DNA of 64,000 nucleotides from Lachnospiraceae bacterium (GTDB lineage: Bacteria > Bacillota > Clostridia > Lachnospirales > Lachnospiraceae): positions 1 through 64,000 of the forward strand of contig JAGAOO010000022.1 of the NCBI GenBank assembly GCA_017623675.1. Reading direction: 5' to 3'. The notes under the pieces were generated by a model, which was not told the origin of the DNA, did not search any database, and saw only the letters and a list, made by a program, of their open reading frames with translations. Made by a program: the position numbers and the translations under genes. Of this stretch, positions 5,686 to 63,451 are shown one piece after another (positions within the stretch are counted from its first letter, which is position 1; each line of letters starts with the position of its first letter).

Positions 5686-6243
5686 ATGCTGACACAAGAT
5701 GATTTCGAAGCACTGGAGCAACTTTTTGTAAAGCACATTTCAAAAATTGAGGACAGACTTACTTCTCTCGAAGAAAAGGTTGAACGGCTCGAAACCAGAA
5801 TAACTGCTCTCGAGGAAAAAGTTGAACGCCTCGAAGCCAGAGTGACTGCTCTCGAGGAAAAAGTTGAACGGCTCGAAGCCAGAATGACTGCTCTCGAGGA
5901 AAAAGTTGAACGGCTCGAAGCCAGAGTGACTGCTCTCGAGGAAAAAGTTGAACGACTCGAAACCAGAATAACTGCTCTCGAGGAAAAAGTTGAACGGCTC
6001 GAAGTCCGAGTGACTTCAGTTGAAAGCAGACTCTCTTTGGTTGAGGACAAGCTCATACATATTGAAATCGAATTGTTGGAAAACAATGTTCTTCCTCGTC
6101 TTATTACGATTGAATCCTGTTATACATCTACCTATCGACGGTATGTAACAGGCATTAATCAGCTGGACGCAATGCAAATCGATATTGATATGATGAAAAA
6201 GACAATTACCAGACATTCGGAACTACTGCAATTTCTTGCGTAG
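5686..6243 (+). CDS. Coiled-coil repeat protein of unknown function
   Basis: 185 codons with a near-perfect ribosome site (AGGAGGTGA). Residues 1-27 are a short acidic/hydrophobic lead. Residues 28-111 are six copies of a 14-residue unit, LEEKVERLEARVTA and close variants, with a heptad L/V pattern that predicts a continuous helical coiled coil. The C-terminal 60 residues (NVLPRLITIESCYTSTYRRY...) are non-repetitive. There is no signal peptide or membrane segment. I recognise no enzymatic domain; a scaffold or oligomerising role is only inference. An intrinsic terminator follows directly after the stop. Confidence 0.75.
   Translation: MLTQDDFEALEQLFVKHISKIEDRLTSLEEKVERLETRITALEEKVERLEARVTALEEKVERLEARMTALEEKVERLEARVTALEEKVERLETRITALEEKVERLEVRVTSVESRLSLVEDKLIHIEIELLENNVLPRLITIESCYTSTYRRYVTGINQLDAMQIDIDMMKKTITRHSELLQFLA
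5767..6018 (+). repeat. Six tandem 42-bp repeats inside the coiled-coil gene
   Basis: Six units of 42 bp (14 codons), each beginning CTCGAGGAAAAAGTTGAACG or a close variant. The units are nearly identical at DNA level, including synonymous sites. That suggests recent duplication or gene conversion and probable copy-number variation between strains. Confidence 0.9.
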
Positions 6244-37448: not shown

Positions 37449-37505
37449 AACCTTCTCCCTTTCATTTCGAATTATCCTTATCCGAAGTAACGGATTCTCA
37501 ATGTG

Positions 37506-37563
37506 TTTTTTCGCCTTATGCCGATGTCCGCAAGCGCACATCGTCGCAAGGCTCATTATATCA
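37506..37563 (-). repeat. Palindromic promoter-linked repeat, copy 1 (upstream of hprK)
   Basis: On the minus strand it begins TGATATAATGAGCCTTGCG and forms GCCTT/AAGGC outer and CGATGT/ACATCG inner stems, ending in a run of A. It is nearly identical to 63347-63403. TGATATAAT is an extended -10 box, so the element could carry the hprK promoter. Confidence 0.75.
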
Positions 37564-37593
37564 TACTTCCAGTAAGCATGCATTAGTTAAATT

Positions 37594-39480
37594 TCATTCA
37601 CCCTGTTTCTCTTTATGAAAGAATTGGTATACTGCAATAGCCGTTGGTTCATTCATGTTAGGTGCCTGTTTCAATTCCTCCACTGTTGCCTGCCGAATAG
37701 CTTCTATTGTCTTAAAATGCTGCATCAACGCCTTTCTTCTTGCAGGTCCCACTCCTTCAATCTCATCCAAAATGGATTTCACCTGAGTTTTACTGCGTAG
37801 CAGCTTATGGTATTCGATTGCAAAACGATGTGCTTCATCCTGAATTCGCGTAATCAGGTCAAAGGCTTCATTCCTTGGCGGAAAAGCAATTTCCTGATTA
37901 TTATAATATAGGCCTCTGGTTCGGTGATTGTCATCCTTTACCATGCCACAGACCGGAATATTCAGATGCAGCTGTTCTAATACCCGTAATGCCACATTCA
38001 CCTGTCCTCGTCCACCATCCATCATTATCAAATCCGGAAAACGATTAAAGCTGCCTAACTCTTCCTGCATTCCTTCCTCTGTCATCTGACGTTGTTCCTC
38101 TTTTCCATGAAGAAAACGTCTGGTTAAGGTTTCTTCCATACTCTTATAATCATCGGGGCCTGTCACCGTCCGCAAGCGGAACTTCCTATAATCACTCCGC
38201 TTCGCTTTTCCCCTTTCGAACACCACCATGGAAGCAACTGCATTTACACCACTGATATTGGAAATATCAAAGGCCTCAATCCGATCTGCCTTTTCAATGC
38301 CTATCAATTCCGCAATTTCTCTTGCAGCTCCTATGGTTCTTGCTTCCTCCCTTTTTATCTTCTCCAAGTCTTGATGCAATACCAGCATGGCATTATCTTT
38401 TGCAAGTTCAACTAATTTATGCTTTTCTCCTTTTTGTGGCGTTAAAATATGCACCCGCTGTTCCCGCTTCTGCGACAGCCATTGCTCCAGCAAGTCCCGT
38501 TCCTCCACTTCCGTTTCCAGCAGTAATTCTTTCGGAATATATGGTGTTCCGGCATAATACTGCTTAACAAATGCAGCCATGGTATCTGCCGGTTGTTCCG
38601 GTTCCACACCTGACATATGAAAATGCTCTCTTCCAAGCAGTTTTCCTTCCCGAATAAAGAAAATAGATACGACTGCTTCTTTTCCTTCCACTGCCATAGC
38701 CACTACATCCCGGTCTACAGCGTTAGAATTCGTGTTAGTAATTCTCTGCTTTCCTACGATGTGATTTACACTCTCCATTAAATCCCGGTATTCTGCTGCC
38801 TGTTCAAATTCGAATTCCGCAGCCGCCGCCTGCATTTTTCGTTTCAGTTCTTCCATAACCTTTTTGGTATTACCATTCAGAAAATCCAAAACTGCATCCA
38901 CATTTTTACTATATTCTTCCTGAGAAATATATCCCTGACATGGTGCCAGACACTGTTTCATCTGATAATACAAACAAGGTCTTTCCATCCCTTGTTCCTT
39001 TGGTAACTTCTTATTGCAAGAACGAATGTGGTATAACTTTTGCAGCAATTCAATCGTATCCCGTACTGCACCGCTGCTGGTAAATGGTCCAAAATATCTT
39101 GCTTTATCCCGTTTGATTTGACGGGTAAGCAATATCCTTGGAAAGGGTTCCTCTACCGTAACCTTAATAAACGGATAGGTTTTGTCATCCGTCAGCATGG
39201 TATTGTATTTCGGAGCATATTCTTTAATCAGATTATTTTCCAATACCAGTGCTTCCAGTTCTGAATCAGTCACGATATATTCAAAATAATGAATCAGAGT
39301 AATCATTTTCTCAATCTTCGGAGAACGATTCCGCCCGGATTGAAAATATTGCCGCACCCGATTCTTCAAATTAATTGCCTTACCCACATAAATAATCTCA
39401 TCGCTCTTACTGTGCATGAGATAAACCCCAGGCTGTTCCGGAAGTTTTTTCAATTCTTCTTCTATATTAAAATCCTTCAT
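37594..39480 (-). CDS. uvrC: Excinuclease ABC subunit C
   Basis: 628 codons, full length. The N-terminal GIY-YIG nuclease ([18 protein letters not shown]) makes the 3' incision in nucleotide excision repair. A Cys-rich segment with [13 protein letters not shown] and the UvrB-binding UVR helix ([14 protein letters not shown]) follow. The RNase H-like C-terminal nuclease has FDISNISG and MDGGRGQV, and helix-hairpin-helix repeats close the protein ([16 protein letters not shown]). It is the first gene of the minus-strand cluster running to whiA and the HPr-like gene. Confidence 0.97.
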
Positions 39481-39540: not shown

Positions 39541-39584
39541 GAATCAATTGTATAAATTAAGGTTTGTTGGTTTAGTCGCCTTAT

Positions 39585-39724
39585 CGGTTTCTGATGACAG
39601 ATAGTTACCGCAGACACGCTTGCACTCCGGTCAGCACGTAATGGTGCATAAGGTGCGACAATACCGCACCTAAGCACCAACGTGCTTTTAAGGTCTGCTT
39701 GCAACTATCTATCACCAGAAACCG
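39585..39724 (-). ncRNA. Large structured element A (candidate RNA or repeat), minus strand
   Basis: A 140-bp imperfect palindrome. The outer 22-bp arms differ at two positions, and both become G-U pairs if the minus strand is the RNA. The core (39613-39695, minus) contains GACCTTAAAAGCACGT, a stem with TTAGG facing CCTTAT, and ACGTGCTGACCGGAG, followed by a GCAA loop hairpin and GTGTC. The same core recurs in element C on the plus strand. No open reading frame, promoter or terminator is obvious for it. Confidence 0.55.
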
Positions 39725-39746
39725 GTAGCCAACTTTACAGAATAAT

Positions 39747-39834
39747 CCATAATTTATATGGGAAGCAAAGTACCGCGCCGCGCAAGTTATCAATGACTGC
39801 GGAGCCATACTACTTTCCCCAATATAAATTATGG
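39747..39834. repeat. Large palindrome B between elements A and C
   Basis: Arms CCATAATTTATAT...AAAGTA and TACTACTTTCC...ATAAATTATGG pair over about 25 bp with one or two bulges. A GC-rich 35-nt interior contains CCGC/GCGG. It does not share the core of A and C. Confidence 0.6.
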
Positions 39835-39855
39835 TTCATATCCATTCCTACAGCA

Positions 39856-40022
39856 GCGGTTTTGAGGGTATATGTTCACGCAACGACCTTAGAAGCACGT
39901 CGGTACTTAGGCTGTGCTTTGCAATCAATAATACATGATATCTGGATGCACAGCCTTATGTACCGCTACGTGCTGGCCAGAGCGCAAGCGTGTCGTGCGG
40001 GAATATATATCCTTAAAACCGC
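39856..40022 (+). ncRNA. Large structured element C (candidate RNA or repeat), plus strand
   Basis: A 167-bp imperfect palindrome. Three outer-stem differences are all G-U on the plus strand. The core is at 39885-39994: GACCTTAGAAGCACGT, CGGTAC-TTAGG facing CCTTAT-GTACCG, ACGTGCTGGCCAGAG, GCAA loop, GTGTC. Relative to element A, two base pairs changed on both sides (T-A to C-G, G-C to A-T), which is covariation. Confidence 0.55.
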
Positions 40023-40051
40023 GGTCGCAGGCATTACGTTAAACCATAATT

Positions 40052-41803
40052 TTACTGTCTAACCTTAATATGCACTTCCCGTAACTGCTGTTCTGTCACC
40101 TCTCCCGGAGCTCCGCACATCAGATCCTGTGCGTTACCGTTCATTGGGAACGCAATAACCTCACGAATATTTTCTTCGTTACGAAGGAGCATAATCATAC
40201 GGTCAACACCCGGTGCCATACCGGCATGTGGTGGTGCACCAAACTGGAATGCATTGTATAAAGCTCCAAACTTTTCTTTTAAGTCTTCCTCGGTATATCC
40301 GGCGATTTCAAATGCCTTTACCATAATCTGCATATCATGATTCCGAACCGCACCGGAAGACAGCTCTACACCATTACATACAATATCATACTGATATGCC
40401 AGAATATCTTCCGGATTCTTGGTGTTCAAGGCTTCCAATCCGCCCTGTGGCATAGAGAATGGATTGTGGGTGAAAATCATCTGTTTTGCTTCCTTGTCAT
40501 ATTCATACATTGGGAAGTCGTTAATATAGCAGAAACGATATGCATTTTTCTCTAACAAATCCAAACGCACGCCTAATTCTGTACGAATCTGTCCTGCATA
40601 CTCTGCTGCCCGTTGTTCATTATCTGCAATGAAGAAAATAGTATCTCCGGGAACTAAGCCTGCAATATCTGCAATTTCCGTCTTCATATCATCCGGAATA
40701 AACTTGTCAATTGGTCCCTTATAGCTCTTATCTTCCAATACTTCCAAATAACCAAGTCCACCCATACCAATCGAGGTTGCAAACTTCAACAACTTTTCAT
40801 GCTGACCCTTTGATAACTTTTCATGTACGTTAATCGCACGTACTGTCTTGCCATGGAACGGCTTAAAGGTACAACGTTGGAAGAAATCTGTCACATCCAC
40901 AATACGAAGTGGATTCCGCAAATCCGGCTTATCCGTACCGAATTCCAGCATTGCCTGCTTATAGCTAATAACCGGATAAGGGGCTTCTGTAACTGCATAG
41001 CCTTCCGGTGCAAATTTCTTAAATGTAGCAGATAATACTTCCTCACCTACACGGAATACATCCTCCTGGGTAGCAAAGCTCATTTCAAAATCCAACTGAT
41101 AAAATTCTCCCGGTGAACGGTCTGCTCTTGCATCCTCGTCACGGAAACAAGGTGCAATCTGGAAGTATTTATCAAAGCCGGACACCATTAACAACTGCTT
41201 ATACTGCTGTGGTGCCTGTGGCAATGCATAGAACTTACCCTTGAACTTTCTGGACGGTACAATATAGTCTCTGGCACCTTCCGGTGAAGAAGCGCAAAGA
41301 ATCGGAGTTTGAATTTCCAAAAAGCCCATTTCTGTCATTTTTTCCCGCAGGAAGCTAATCACCTTTGAACGGAAAATGATATTATCCTTTACCTTCTTAT
41401 TTCTTAAATCCAAGTAACGATATTTCAGACGTACATCCTCACGGATTTCCTTAGAGGTCATGATTTCAAATGGAATCTGCTTATATACTTTACCTAATAC
41501 GCTAACGCTGTGTGCCTCTAATTCGATCGTTCCGGTCTCAATATTCGGATTGTAGGTTTCCTCATCACGATGCTCTACTACACCTTCAATCGATACACAG
41601 TCTTCCTTTGTTAATCCGTCCAACAGGGTAGTATCACGCATTACTACCTGTAATACGCCATACATATCTCTTAAGTCTACGAAGGAAACACCGCCGTGGT
41701 CACGGATATTTTCTATCCAGCCTGCCACCTTTAATGTTTCTCCAACATCTGATTCCTTGATGTTATCAATGGTTCTGTTCCGATACATGTTTGATGTGTT
41801 CAT
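40052..41803 (-). CDS. aspS: Aspartyl-tRNA synthetase
   Basis: 583 codons from the ATG at 41803, 7 nt after AAGGAG; an upstream in-frame ATG at 41857 lacks a ribosome site. The N-terminal OB-fold anticodon-binding domain (KVAGWIENIRDHGGVSFVDLRD) is followed by the class II catalytic core with FRDEDARADR and the C-terminal GAPPHAGMAPGVDR. The bacterial-type GAD insertion lies between. It charges tRNA-Asp; whether it also charges tRNA-Asn is relevant to the T-box leader upstream. Confidence 0.96.
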   Translation of the reverse strand: MNTSNMYRNRTIDNIKESDVGETLKVAGWIENIRDHGGVSFVDLRDMYGVLQVVMRDTTLLDGLTKEDCVSIEGVVEHRDEETYNPNIETGTIELEAHSVSVLGKVYKQIPFEIMTSKEIREDVRLKYRYLDLRNKKVKDNIIFRSKVISFLREKMTEMGFLEIQTPILCASSPEGARDYIVPSRKFKGKFYALPQAPQQYKQLLMVSGFDKYFQIAPCFRDEDARADRSPGEFYQLDFEMSFATQEDVFRVGEEVLSATFKKFAPEGYAVTEAPYPVISYKQAMLEFGTDKPDLRNPLRIVDVTDFFQRCTFKPFHGKTVRAINVHEKLSKGQHEKLLKFATSIGMGGLGYLEVLEDKSYKGPIDKFIPDDMKTEIADIAGLVPGDTIFFIADNEQRAAEYAGQIRTELGVRLDLLEKNAYRFCYINDFPMYEYDKEAKQMIFTHNPFSMPQGGLEALNTKNPEDILAYQYDIVCNGVELSSGAVRNHDMQIMVKAFEIAGYTEEDLKEKFGALYNAFQFGAPPHAGMAPGVDRMIMLLRNEENIREVIAFPMNGNAQDLMCGAPGEVTEQQLREVHIKVRQ

Positions 41804-43866: not shown

Positions 43867-43909
43867 TTTCTAATTCCTCGCTTCCCTTCGCCTTTATATA
43901 TCTTAAGTT

Positions 43910-44140
43910 CTCCCGCATGAACGCTCACCTCGTGTGCTCCGCACCCTCGGTGTTCGTTGCACTCACATAAGCTCTTAGCCAATCCCTTGCCTGCAAGCAG
44001 GCAGTGCTTGGCCTGCGACACTGCGGTTCTCTCCCGCATGAACGCTCACCTCGTGTGCTCCGCACCCTCGGTGTTCGTTGCACTCACATAAGCTCTTAGC
44101 CAATCCCTTGCCTGCAAGCAGGCAGTGCTTGGCCTGCGAC
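43910..44140. repeat. Perfect 110-bp direct repeat rich in small hairpins
   Basis: Copies at 43910-44019 and 44031-44140 are identical over 110 bp, separated by 11 bp. Each contains GCCTGC-AA-GCAGGC inside GCCAA/TTGGC and a chain of short GTG/CAC hairpins. GCATGAACGC near the left and GCGTTCATGC after the right copy form a long inverted pair. The region is GC-richer than its surroundings. TATAATG is found at its outer end on the minus strand. Confidence 0.92.
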
Positions 44141-44302
44141 CTTGCGTTCATGCTTATGCGTTCATTATACTCTCTTTCTGGGGTTTCGTCTAGGTCATGT
44201 ATGGAAGATTTCCGCATCTATTATGAATGTATTTTTAATATATTAATAATGTCTGTTTGATTTGCTGGAAAAAATATACACTACCAACAGGAGGGTCGAA
44301 TT

Positions 44303-63323: not shown

Positions 63324-63346
63324 CGTCGATTACCGTCTCCGTGTAG

Positions 63347-63403
63347 TTTTTCGCCTTATGGCGATGTCCGTAAACGCACATCGCCGCAAGGCTCATTATA
63401 TCA
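63347..63403 (-). repeat. Palindromic promoter-linked repeat, copy 2 (upstream of the epimerase)
   Basis: 57 bp that match 37506-37563 with only a few differences. The hairpin loop changes (GCAAGC to GTAAAC) and a stem base changes. The order is the same: extended -10, GCCTT/AAGGC stem, CGATGT/ACATCG stem, A-run. Confidence 0.75.
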
Positions 63404-63451
63404 CAATTATTCAAGGTACGGAAGATATATCTATAAAGCTGTGACATGAGA

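Follow-up and report, generated by a model that had tools for sequence, protein, structure and literature searches.

What makes a repeat that resembles a transposon retain, across genera, a strand-specific, GNRA-capped fold, even though its ends vary from lineage to lineage? This question is raised by an intergenic locus between uvrC and aspS in the window, that is, the whole stretch of 64,000 nucleotides of Lachnospiraceae bacterium DNA that was analyzed. An initial annotation, made from the letters alone, had described two homologous hairpins, A and C, in opposite orientation at this site. As described, both hairpins are present, and their inverted match covers 41 nt at 85%. The element exceeds the extent given to the feature (39585–40022); it is a composite repeat of approximately 505 bp (39549–40053) with a third hairpin, B, and end repeats. 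The features of the locus are as follows.

37594–39480, minus strand: uvrC
39549..40053, unstranded: whole composite element (repeat structure and copies in its own genome)
39553..39565, plus strand: outer left end repeat, TAAATTAAGGTTT (end-repeat matching)
39582..39727, folded strand minus, as for aspS and uvrC: hairpin A with its outer stem (repeat structure, fold)
39599..39709, minus strand: conserved core of A (covariance-model match)
39620..39623, minus strand: GNRA loop (GCAA) of the side hairpin of A (sequence, alignment, loop statistics)
39742..39839, unstranded: spacer hairpin B, with inward end-repeat copies at 39744–39756 (minus) and 39825–39837 (plus)
39826..40052, folded strand plus: hairpin C with its outer stem and end repeats (repeat structure, fold)
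39871..40008, plus strand: conserved core of C, with a long apical loop (covariance-model match)
39984..39987, plus strand: GNRA loop (GCAA) of the side hairpin of C (sequence, alignment, loop statistics)
40041..40053, minus strand: outer right end repeat, AAAATTATGGTTT, overlapping the aspS stop codon
40052–41857, minus strand: aspS open reading frame, its stop codon overlapped by the outer right end repeat

Hairpins A and C form an inverted pair flanking the small hairpin B. Both outer ends carry short repeats, TAAATTAWGGTTT, and opposite-facing copies of these surround B. The arms of A (39582–39606 and 39703–39727) are 88% complementary and those of C (39826–39882 and 39996–40052) 74%. Fold z-scores were −8.9 for A and −8.4 for C, with 0 of 200 shuffles as good, and −5.7 for B. 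The double changes that had been reported in the shared stem (T-A to C-G and G-C to A-T) are visible in the alignment, and the apical stems of A and C indeed differ in sequence with pairing kept. The claim that mismatches in the outer stems are G-U only was not borne out, since A contained four G-T, one A-C, and two other mismatches, and C four G-T, two A-C, and three others. A covariance model gave two matches on the window (E of 3e-37 and 8e-34) and no third up to E 10; this is no independent test, because the model was made from relatives of these sequences. The open reading frames listed for the element were just small overlapping frames, and it accounted for no long one.

We then analyzed the copies of the element. 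The repeat far exceeds chance in its own draft genome (2.8 Mb in 84 contigs): BLAST returned 130 matches, each copy accounting for several of them, and the covariance model returned 47 (E up to 0.01) from the 150 candidates scored out of 262. Many copies are placed at contig ends, and the element may for this reason account for assembly breaks. Copies inside one genome were often 92–99% identical. By DNA similarity, 6 of the 61 genomes searched were positive, all of one genus, and close copies were found in the window's genus only. A covariance-model search of Lachnospiraceae genomes, as the initial annotation had proposed, detected the core in 154 of 397 genomes and 137 of 334 genera (model R1); this is a lower bound, because the filters were strict and few candidates were scored per genome. 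With model R2, a sample of 295 genomes from the order gave 34 with a match, 32 of them in the same family; the other two, from two other families of the order, gave weak, mostly partial matches upon rescoring (best E 4.9e-6) and are treated as unproven homologues. Five of 398 genomes matched in a phylum sample, one of which lay outside the family and carried three full-length copies with a convincing best E of 1.5e-15. An exact-pattern search of a named collection returned 22 stretches in three assemblies (Clostridium sp. NALB_7811_6, Lachnospiraceae bacterium SC0385_S15_2, and an uncultured Clostridium bin). A phage or plasmid origin was rejected, as viral contigs gave no exact-pattern match and plasmids and phages no similarity.

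The initial annotation had recognized no known family, and neither did our searches. At family gathering scores, Rfam 15 matched neither the window nor 20 relatives; a permissive search gave two matches at chance level only, and 10 further loci showed nothing but a nearby glmS ribozyme. A known Rfam family is thereby ruled out, and a conserved motif present in more than a third of the sampled Lachnospiraceae genomes without an Rfam 15 family represents an annotation gap in major gut bacteria.

Complete composites in the window's genus carried B in either orientation and varied in their arms. Single hairpins were also present (L080, L081, and L086), and at what are by eye apparently the same genomic sites (L049/L080 and L047/L086), module content differed between two species. 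In L053, L055, L084, and L100, from three species of the window's genus, a longer insertion takes the place of the GNRA side loop. These insertions have CTTGTCGCAAGGAGGGACCC in common and appear to be a further structured repeat, nested within the loop of the hairpin.

Dispersal of the family is established by computation, and end-repeat matching was employed to analyze how copies are bounded. Matches numbered 96 in the window's own genome (33 in the control) and 70 in genome G140 (1 in the control). In genome G196, the elements that contain the core had a uniform length, their ends are based on GTGTCAAAAGCCCTT (59 matches, control 0), and direct repeats of 8–9 bp were found at the ends of 10 of 11 located copies, the eleventh having 5 bp. 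A second lineage group had ends based on TAGGYAATTGCGAAAC (92 matches in G218, control 7); here, the search pattern located 9 of 14 loci and missed five, and direct repeats of 7–13 bp flanked 7 of the 9 located copies, the remaining two having 5 bp and none. Other lineages showed different ends, or none recognizable. The window copy has no detectable target duplication, nor does the one empty site found (in G460 as compared with G237), two observations that count against the reading proposed below. Judging from these ends, transposition is strongly suggested in the two other lineages. The MITE-like mobile hairpin, which the initial annotation had named as its main alternative, also holds, with dispersed copies, end repeats, and, in two related lineages, direct repeats that resemble target duplications.

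The spacing of the ends bears on the core. Among 31 end pairs within 400 bp in G218, 22 were at 200–211 bp, where a full core is expected, six at 263–266 bp, and three at 82–140 bp; judged by length only, 28 of the 31 are spaced widely enough for a full core. Four long elements that were read carry an insertion, and three short ones have lost most of the core. The 263–266 bp class corresponds to L265–L268, which contain an extra hairpin of ~55 nt at the ACTTAG internal loop of the core. Core-less derivatives also occur (L269 and L270), and thus the core is not strictly required for a copy's existence.

As for the source of mobility, no transposase was found between the hairpins and none recurred beside them. 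No autonomous transposon relative was recognized in the end-repeat listings for the own genome and other lineages, which are non-exhaustive and come from drafts that break at repeats. An autonomous transposon inside the hairpin pair was also rejected; the wide pairs in the congeneric species G237 and G460 enclose a gene that, from its sequence, appears to encode a polysaccharide deacetylase.

Next, the structure was examined by covariation. The window and 60 loci provided 72 cores, of which 43 distinct ones were aligned (alignment A1). With the proposed structure, 98.9% of cells paired, double-sided changes occurred in 18 of 27 pairs, and the covariation score was 0.383 compared to 0.133 when shuffled and at most 0.096 when slid. 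Further pair types showed no excess (29 versus 29.4 in shuffles). In a larger alignment (A4; 97 sequences from 75 chosen loci, effective number 79), structural pairs accounted for 19 of the 20 strongest column pairs by mutual information, and the non-structural one (20–133) was 93% complementary and extends a helix. Unpaired bases were conserved across genera, and the side loop was GNRA in 94 of 97 sequences (GAAA 40, GAGA 27, GCAA 18, GCGA 4, GGGA 3, GGAA 2, other 3). The initial annotation had held that a search showing only mobile copies with target duplications and no covariation would refute an RNA function; half of this applies, since the copies are mobile but show covariation.

The strand that folds was then considered. 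In the outer stem beside the core, G-T exceeded A-C mismatches 46:13 and then 31:8, and farther out the counts were 37:25, 35:57, and 19:19, so that the disappearance of the excess marks the extent of the folded unit. Over all outer stems, the ratio was 168:122, and in the window's genus it was 158:48, or 79:35 by unique context. Of 84 non-redundant cases, the stated strand was the more stable of the two in 76 when RNA parameters were applied (73 if no flanks were added) and in 63 when DNA parameters were applied. The core itself had balanced numbers of G-T and A-C mismatches (26:24), unlike a typical RNA. Selection for the folding of one particular strand is well supported, because the covarying pairs are structural, the side loop is almost always GNRA, and the stated strand is the stabler one. 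The folded strand is likely to be RNA, which we prefer over single-stranded DNA because of the GNRA loops; the balanced core mismatches and the weaker bias with DNA parameters leave room for single-stranded DNA. Of the initial proposal of selection for, or recent spread of, an RNA structure, selection on a strand-specific structure is thus strongly supported, and its RNA nature stands as likely, short of proof.

These results can be set against plain MITE palindromes, in which the fold would have no function, cruciform repair or gene conversion would keep the arms complementary, and the cores would be alike because they are recent or converted. Such a reading is consistent with the lack of a G-T excess in the core, the core-less derivatives, and the high identity of copies within a genome. 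However, repair of the arms gives no reason to expect a strand bias limited to the stem beside the core, the GNRA loops, unpaired bases conserved across genera, or one core inside elements with different end repeats, and we regard this reading as quite unlikely.

The arrangement of the hairpins was counted for neighbors closer than 800 bp. All 21 pairs in the window's genus were divergent, and other genera showed 12 divergent, no convergent, and eight tandem pairs, such that 33 of 33 inverted pairs were divergent; independence is overstated in this count, because several pairs are copies of one another (e.g., in G068). Further listed pairs outside the count comprised five divergent ones and one tandem. 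Tandem arrays of three and four hairpins, with spacings of 211 and 178 bp, were observed at L170 and L174 of G140. Promoter-like sites between divergent pairs were not enriched (27 found versus 21.7 expected), and bidirectional promoters between the hairpins were accordingly rejected.

Relative to host genes, the orientation of the hairpins is random. Of 94 hairpins, three lacked two neighbors, and the rest lay between co-directional (70; 31 sense and 39 antisense), convergent (14), or divergent (7) genes, as called by the simple longest ORF; this count supersedes a rougher first one (++ 18, −− 26, +− 10, −+ 8, and five one-sided). No neighbor gene recurred, as the 130 neighboring proteins matched 205 Pfam families, of which none occurred in more than four proteins, and no partner gene in cis was found among them. 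Because of the random orientation and the lack of a recurrent neighbor, the element is the leader of no particular gene; it differs in this from a cis-regulatory leader RNA, which would be placed in consistent sense orientation before a gene class. We inspected five relatives that have a close aspS; by eye, the ~560 bases downstream of the gene contain no element, and the next gene differs there. A single-copy regulatory RNA of aspS or uvrC was rejected, given the dispersed copies and this absence. Four relatives (L230–L233) have a terminator-like stem after aspS where the window has the element, followed by a sequence that, by eye, resembles a T-box leader.

The gene context also bears on the idea that the element is an RNA acting in cis, as a leader, terminator, or stabilizer, on the aspS-uvrC transcript or on host mRNAs in general, and was copied around. 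In its favor, the elements are intergenic and 70 of 91 lie between co-directional genes, and among 11 hairpins orthologous between G237 and G460, core identity was 95–100% in eight; in the other three, it was 77–86%. The flanking 125-nt stretches ranged from 40% to 98% identity, and the core-flank comparison is rough because the flanks mix coding and intergenic DNA. Against such a role stand the near-equal sense and antisense counts, the scattered neighbor families, and the aspS relatives without the element, and we consider this already disfavored reading very improbable. In one assembly (G207), two copies of a presumed fhs-folD intergenic region, L165 and L166, contain one and the same hairpin but in opposite orientations, as would be seen after a flip of the core or in an assembly of two strains.

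The fixed arrangement also recalls REPINs. Alternatively, the element could be a giant relative of these, whose hairpin is folded single-stranded DNA for a Y1/HUH enzyme akin to REP-associated transposases and whose divergent doublets are the mobile unit. The single fixed orientation of inverted doublets, the tandem arrays, the random gene orientation, and the greater stability of the stated strand with DNA parameters as well are all consistent with this. Furthermore, a copy in G237, between genes that we take to be murB and rapZ, is missing in G460, where the flanks abut without duplication, gain and loss being indistinguishable. Y1_Tnp matches occurred at three places in the own genome, and one of them (C61:189-317, a 90-aa frame) lies ~650 bp from an element (C61:967-1276). 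However, two lineages carry end repeats with direct repeats of 7–13 bp, which are unexpected of Y1 enzymes. Moreover, Y1 is absent from the 25 commonest families of the 130 neighbors, the outer stems and feet vary between copies, and the GNRA loops point to RNA. Published REPs, REPINs, and BIMEs with their RAYT transposases, to judge from the portions of the papers used here (PMC3116915 and PMC6006769), share with this family intergenic high-copy hairpins, inverted doublets, clusters, and compensatory changes, the doublets and compensatory changes being described in PMC3116915. The fixed inverted doublets are found here along with eight tandem pairs. In contrast, our hairpins measure ~110–150 nt rather than 21–65 nt (PMC6006769), some lineages have end repeats with direct repeats, and no conserved tetranucleotide foot such as the GT[AG]G of REPs is seen by eye. 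We hold the giant REPIN-like reading to be unlikely.

MITEs, as non-autonomous DNA transposons, resemble this family in their short, non-coding, dispersed copies, their terminal inverted repeats, and, as far as most located copies of two lineages go, direct repeats at insertion sites. They differ from it in that the interior here has a strand-specific fold common to elements whose end repeats are not alike. Among described categories, the nearest is that of the mobile/repeat sequence candidates (MRSC) of a 50-genome ncRNA survey (PMC11109978), which, in the sections of that survey used here, are defined by copy number and often by inconsistent orientation. MRSC and this family have in common many copies per genome, covariation, inconsistent gene orientation, and an undecided RNA or DNA form. 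MRSC are often, not always, associated with transposase, integrase, nuclease, or helicase genes (PMC11109978), whereas no such family was among the 25 commonest of our 130 neighbors. The printed example, MRSC-65-2, is described as one long stem that contains a UYCCGG repeat and comes from diverse phyla; by that description, it is a motif different from our branched, GNRA-capped core, which is nearly confined to Lachnospiraceae in our samples. We file the repeat family under neither MRSC nor REPINs. The motif could also be among the human-microbiome candidate structured RNAs under a number (a set of 3161, including 250 palindromic candidates; PMC8040213); the terms Lachno-, mobile, and transpos- had no match in the main text of that paper. 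None of the literature listings searched on MITEs, structured RNAs, and Lachnospiraceae showed a description of the element.

Altogether, we assign this locus to a family of mobile repeats that is MITE/REPIN-like and carries a conserved structured payload, and both alternatives of the initial annotation are partly right, since the repeat is mobile and has a conserved structured core. More specifically, it is somewhat probable that the locus is a copy of a non-autonomous mobile Lachnospiraceae repeat family, whose payload, a conserved hairpin of ~110–150 nt, has a fold that is recognized. Computation shows the features on which this proposal builds: copies occur throughout the genome, between genes that are unrelated and in both orientations; most located copies in two related lineages have end repeats and direct repeats such as DDE-type transposases leave; and the hairpin units, single, tandem, or in divergent pairs, have a GNRA-capped side hairpin and are under selection for folding of one strand. 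As with MITEs, transposases of the host would act on the end repeats and so move the elements in trans; the folded strand would work as RNA, or less likely as single-stranded DNA, that some factor recognizes; and this recognition may help the element to spread or persist. The transposase, the identity of the fold as RNA, and its benefit to the element are inferred. A recognized fold that aids spreading would explain why the core has been preserved in both sequence and structure although the end repeats vary by lineage. A bolder possibility, which we consider doubtful, is that the core is a new structured-RNA class and the real selfish unit, a transposon passenger acting in trans through its fold. 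The core is shared by more than 100 genera and lies within different sets of transposon ends by lineage; its fold might, for example, recruit a transposase or a host RNA-binding protein to its own copies, somewhat like eukaryotic SINE RNAs.

Other repeats were also observed in the window. A 73-nt repeat pair (37496–37568 and 63336–63408; 86% identical), each member hairpin-like by eye with a GCAA or GTAA loop, is possibly another hairpin repeat family. An intergenic tandem repeat with a 121-bp unit, 1.9 copies, and palindromic content lies at 43909–44146. Finally, a 42-bp repeat occurs six times at 5754–6015, and one of its frames gives a 14-residue repeat that is coiled-coil-like by eye.
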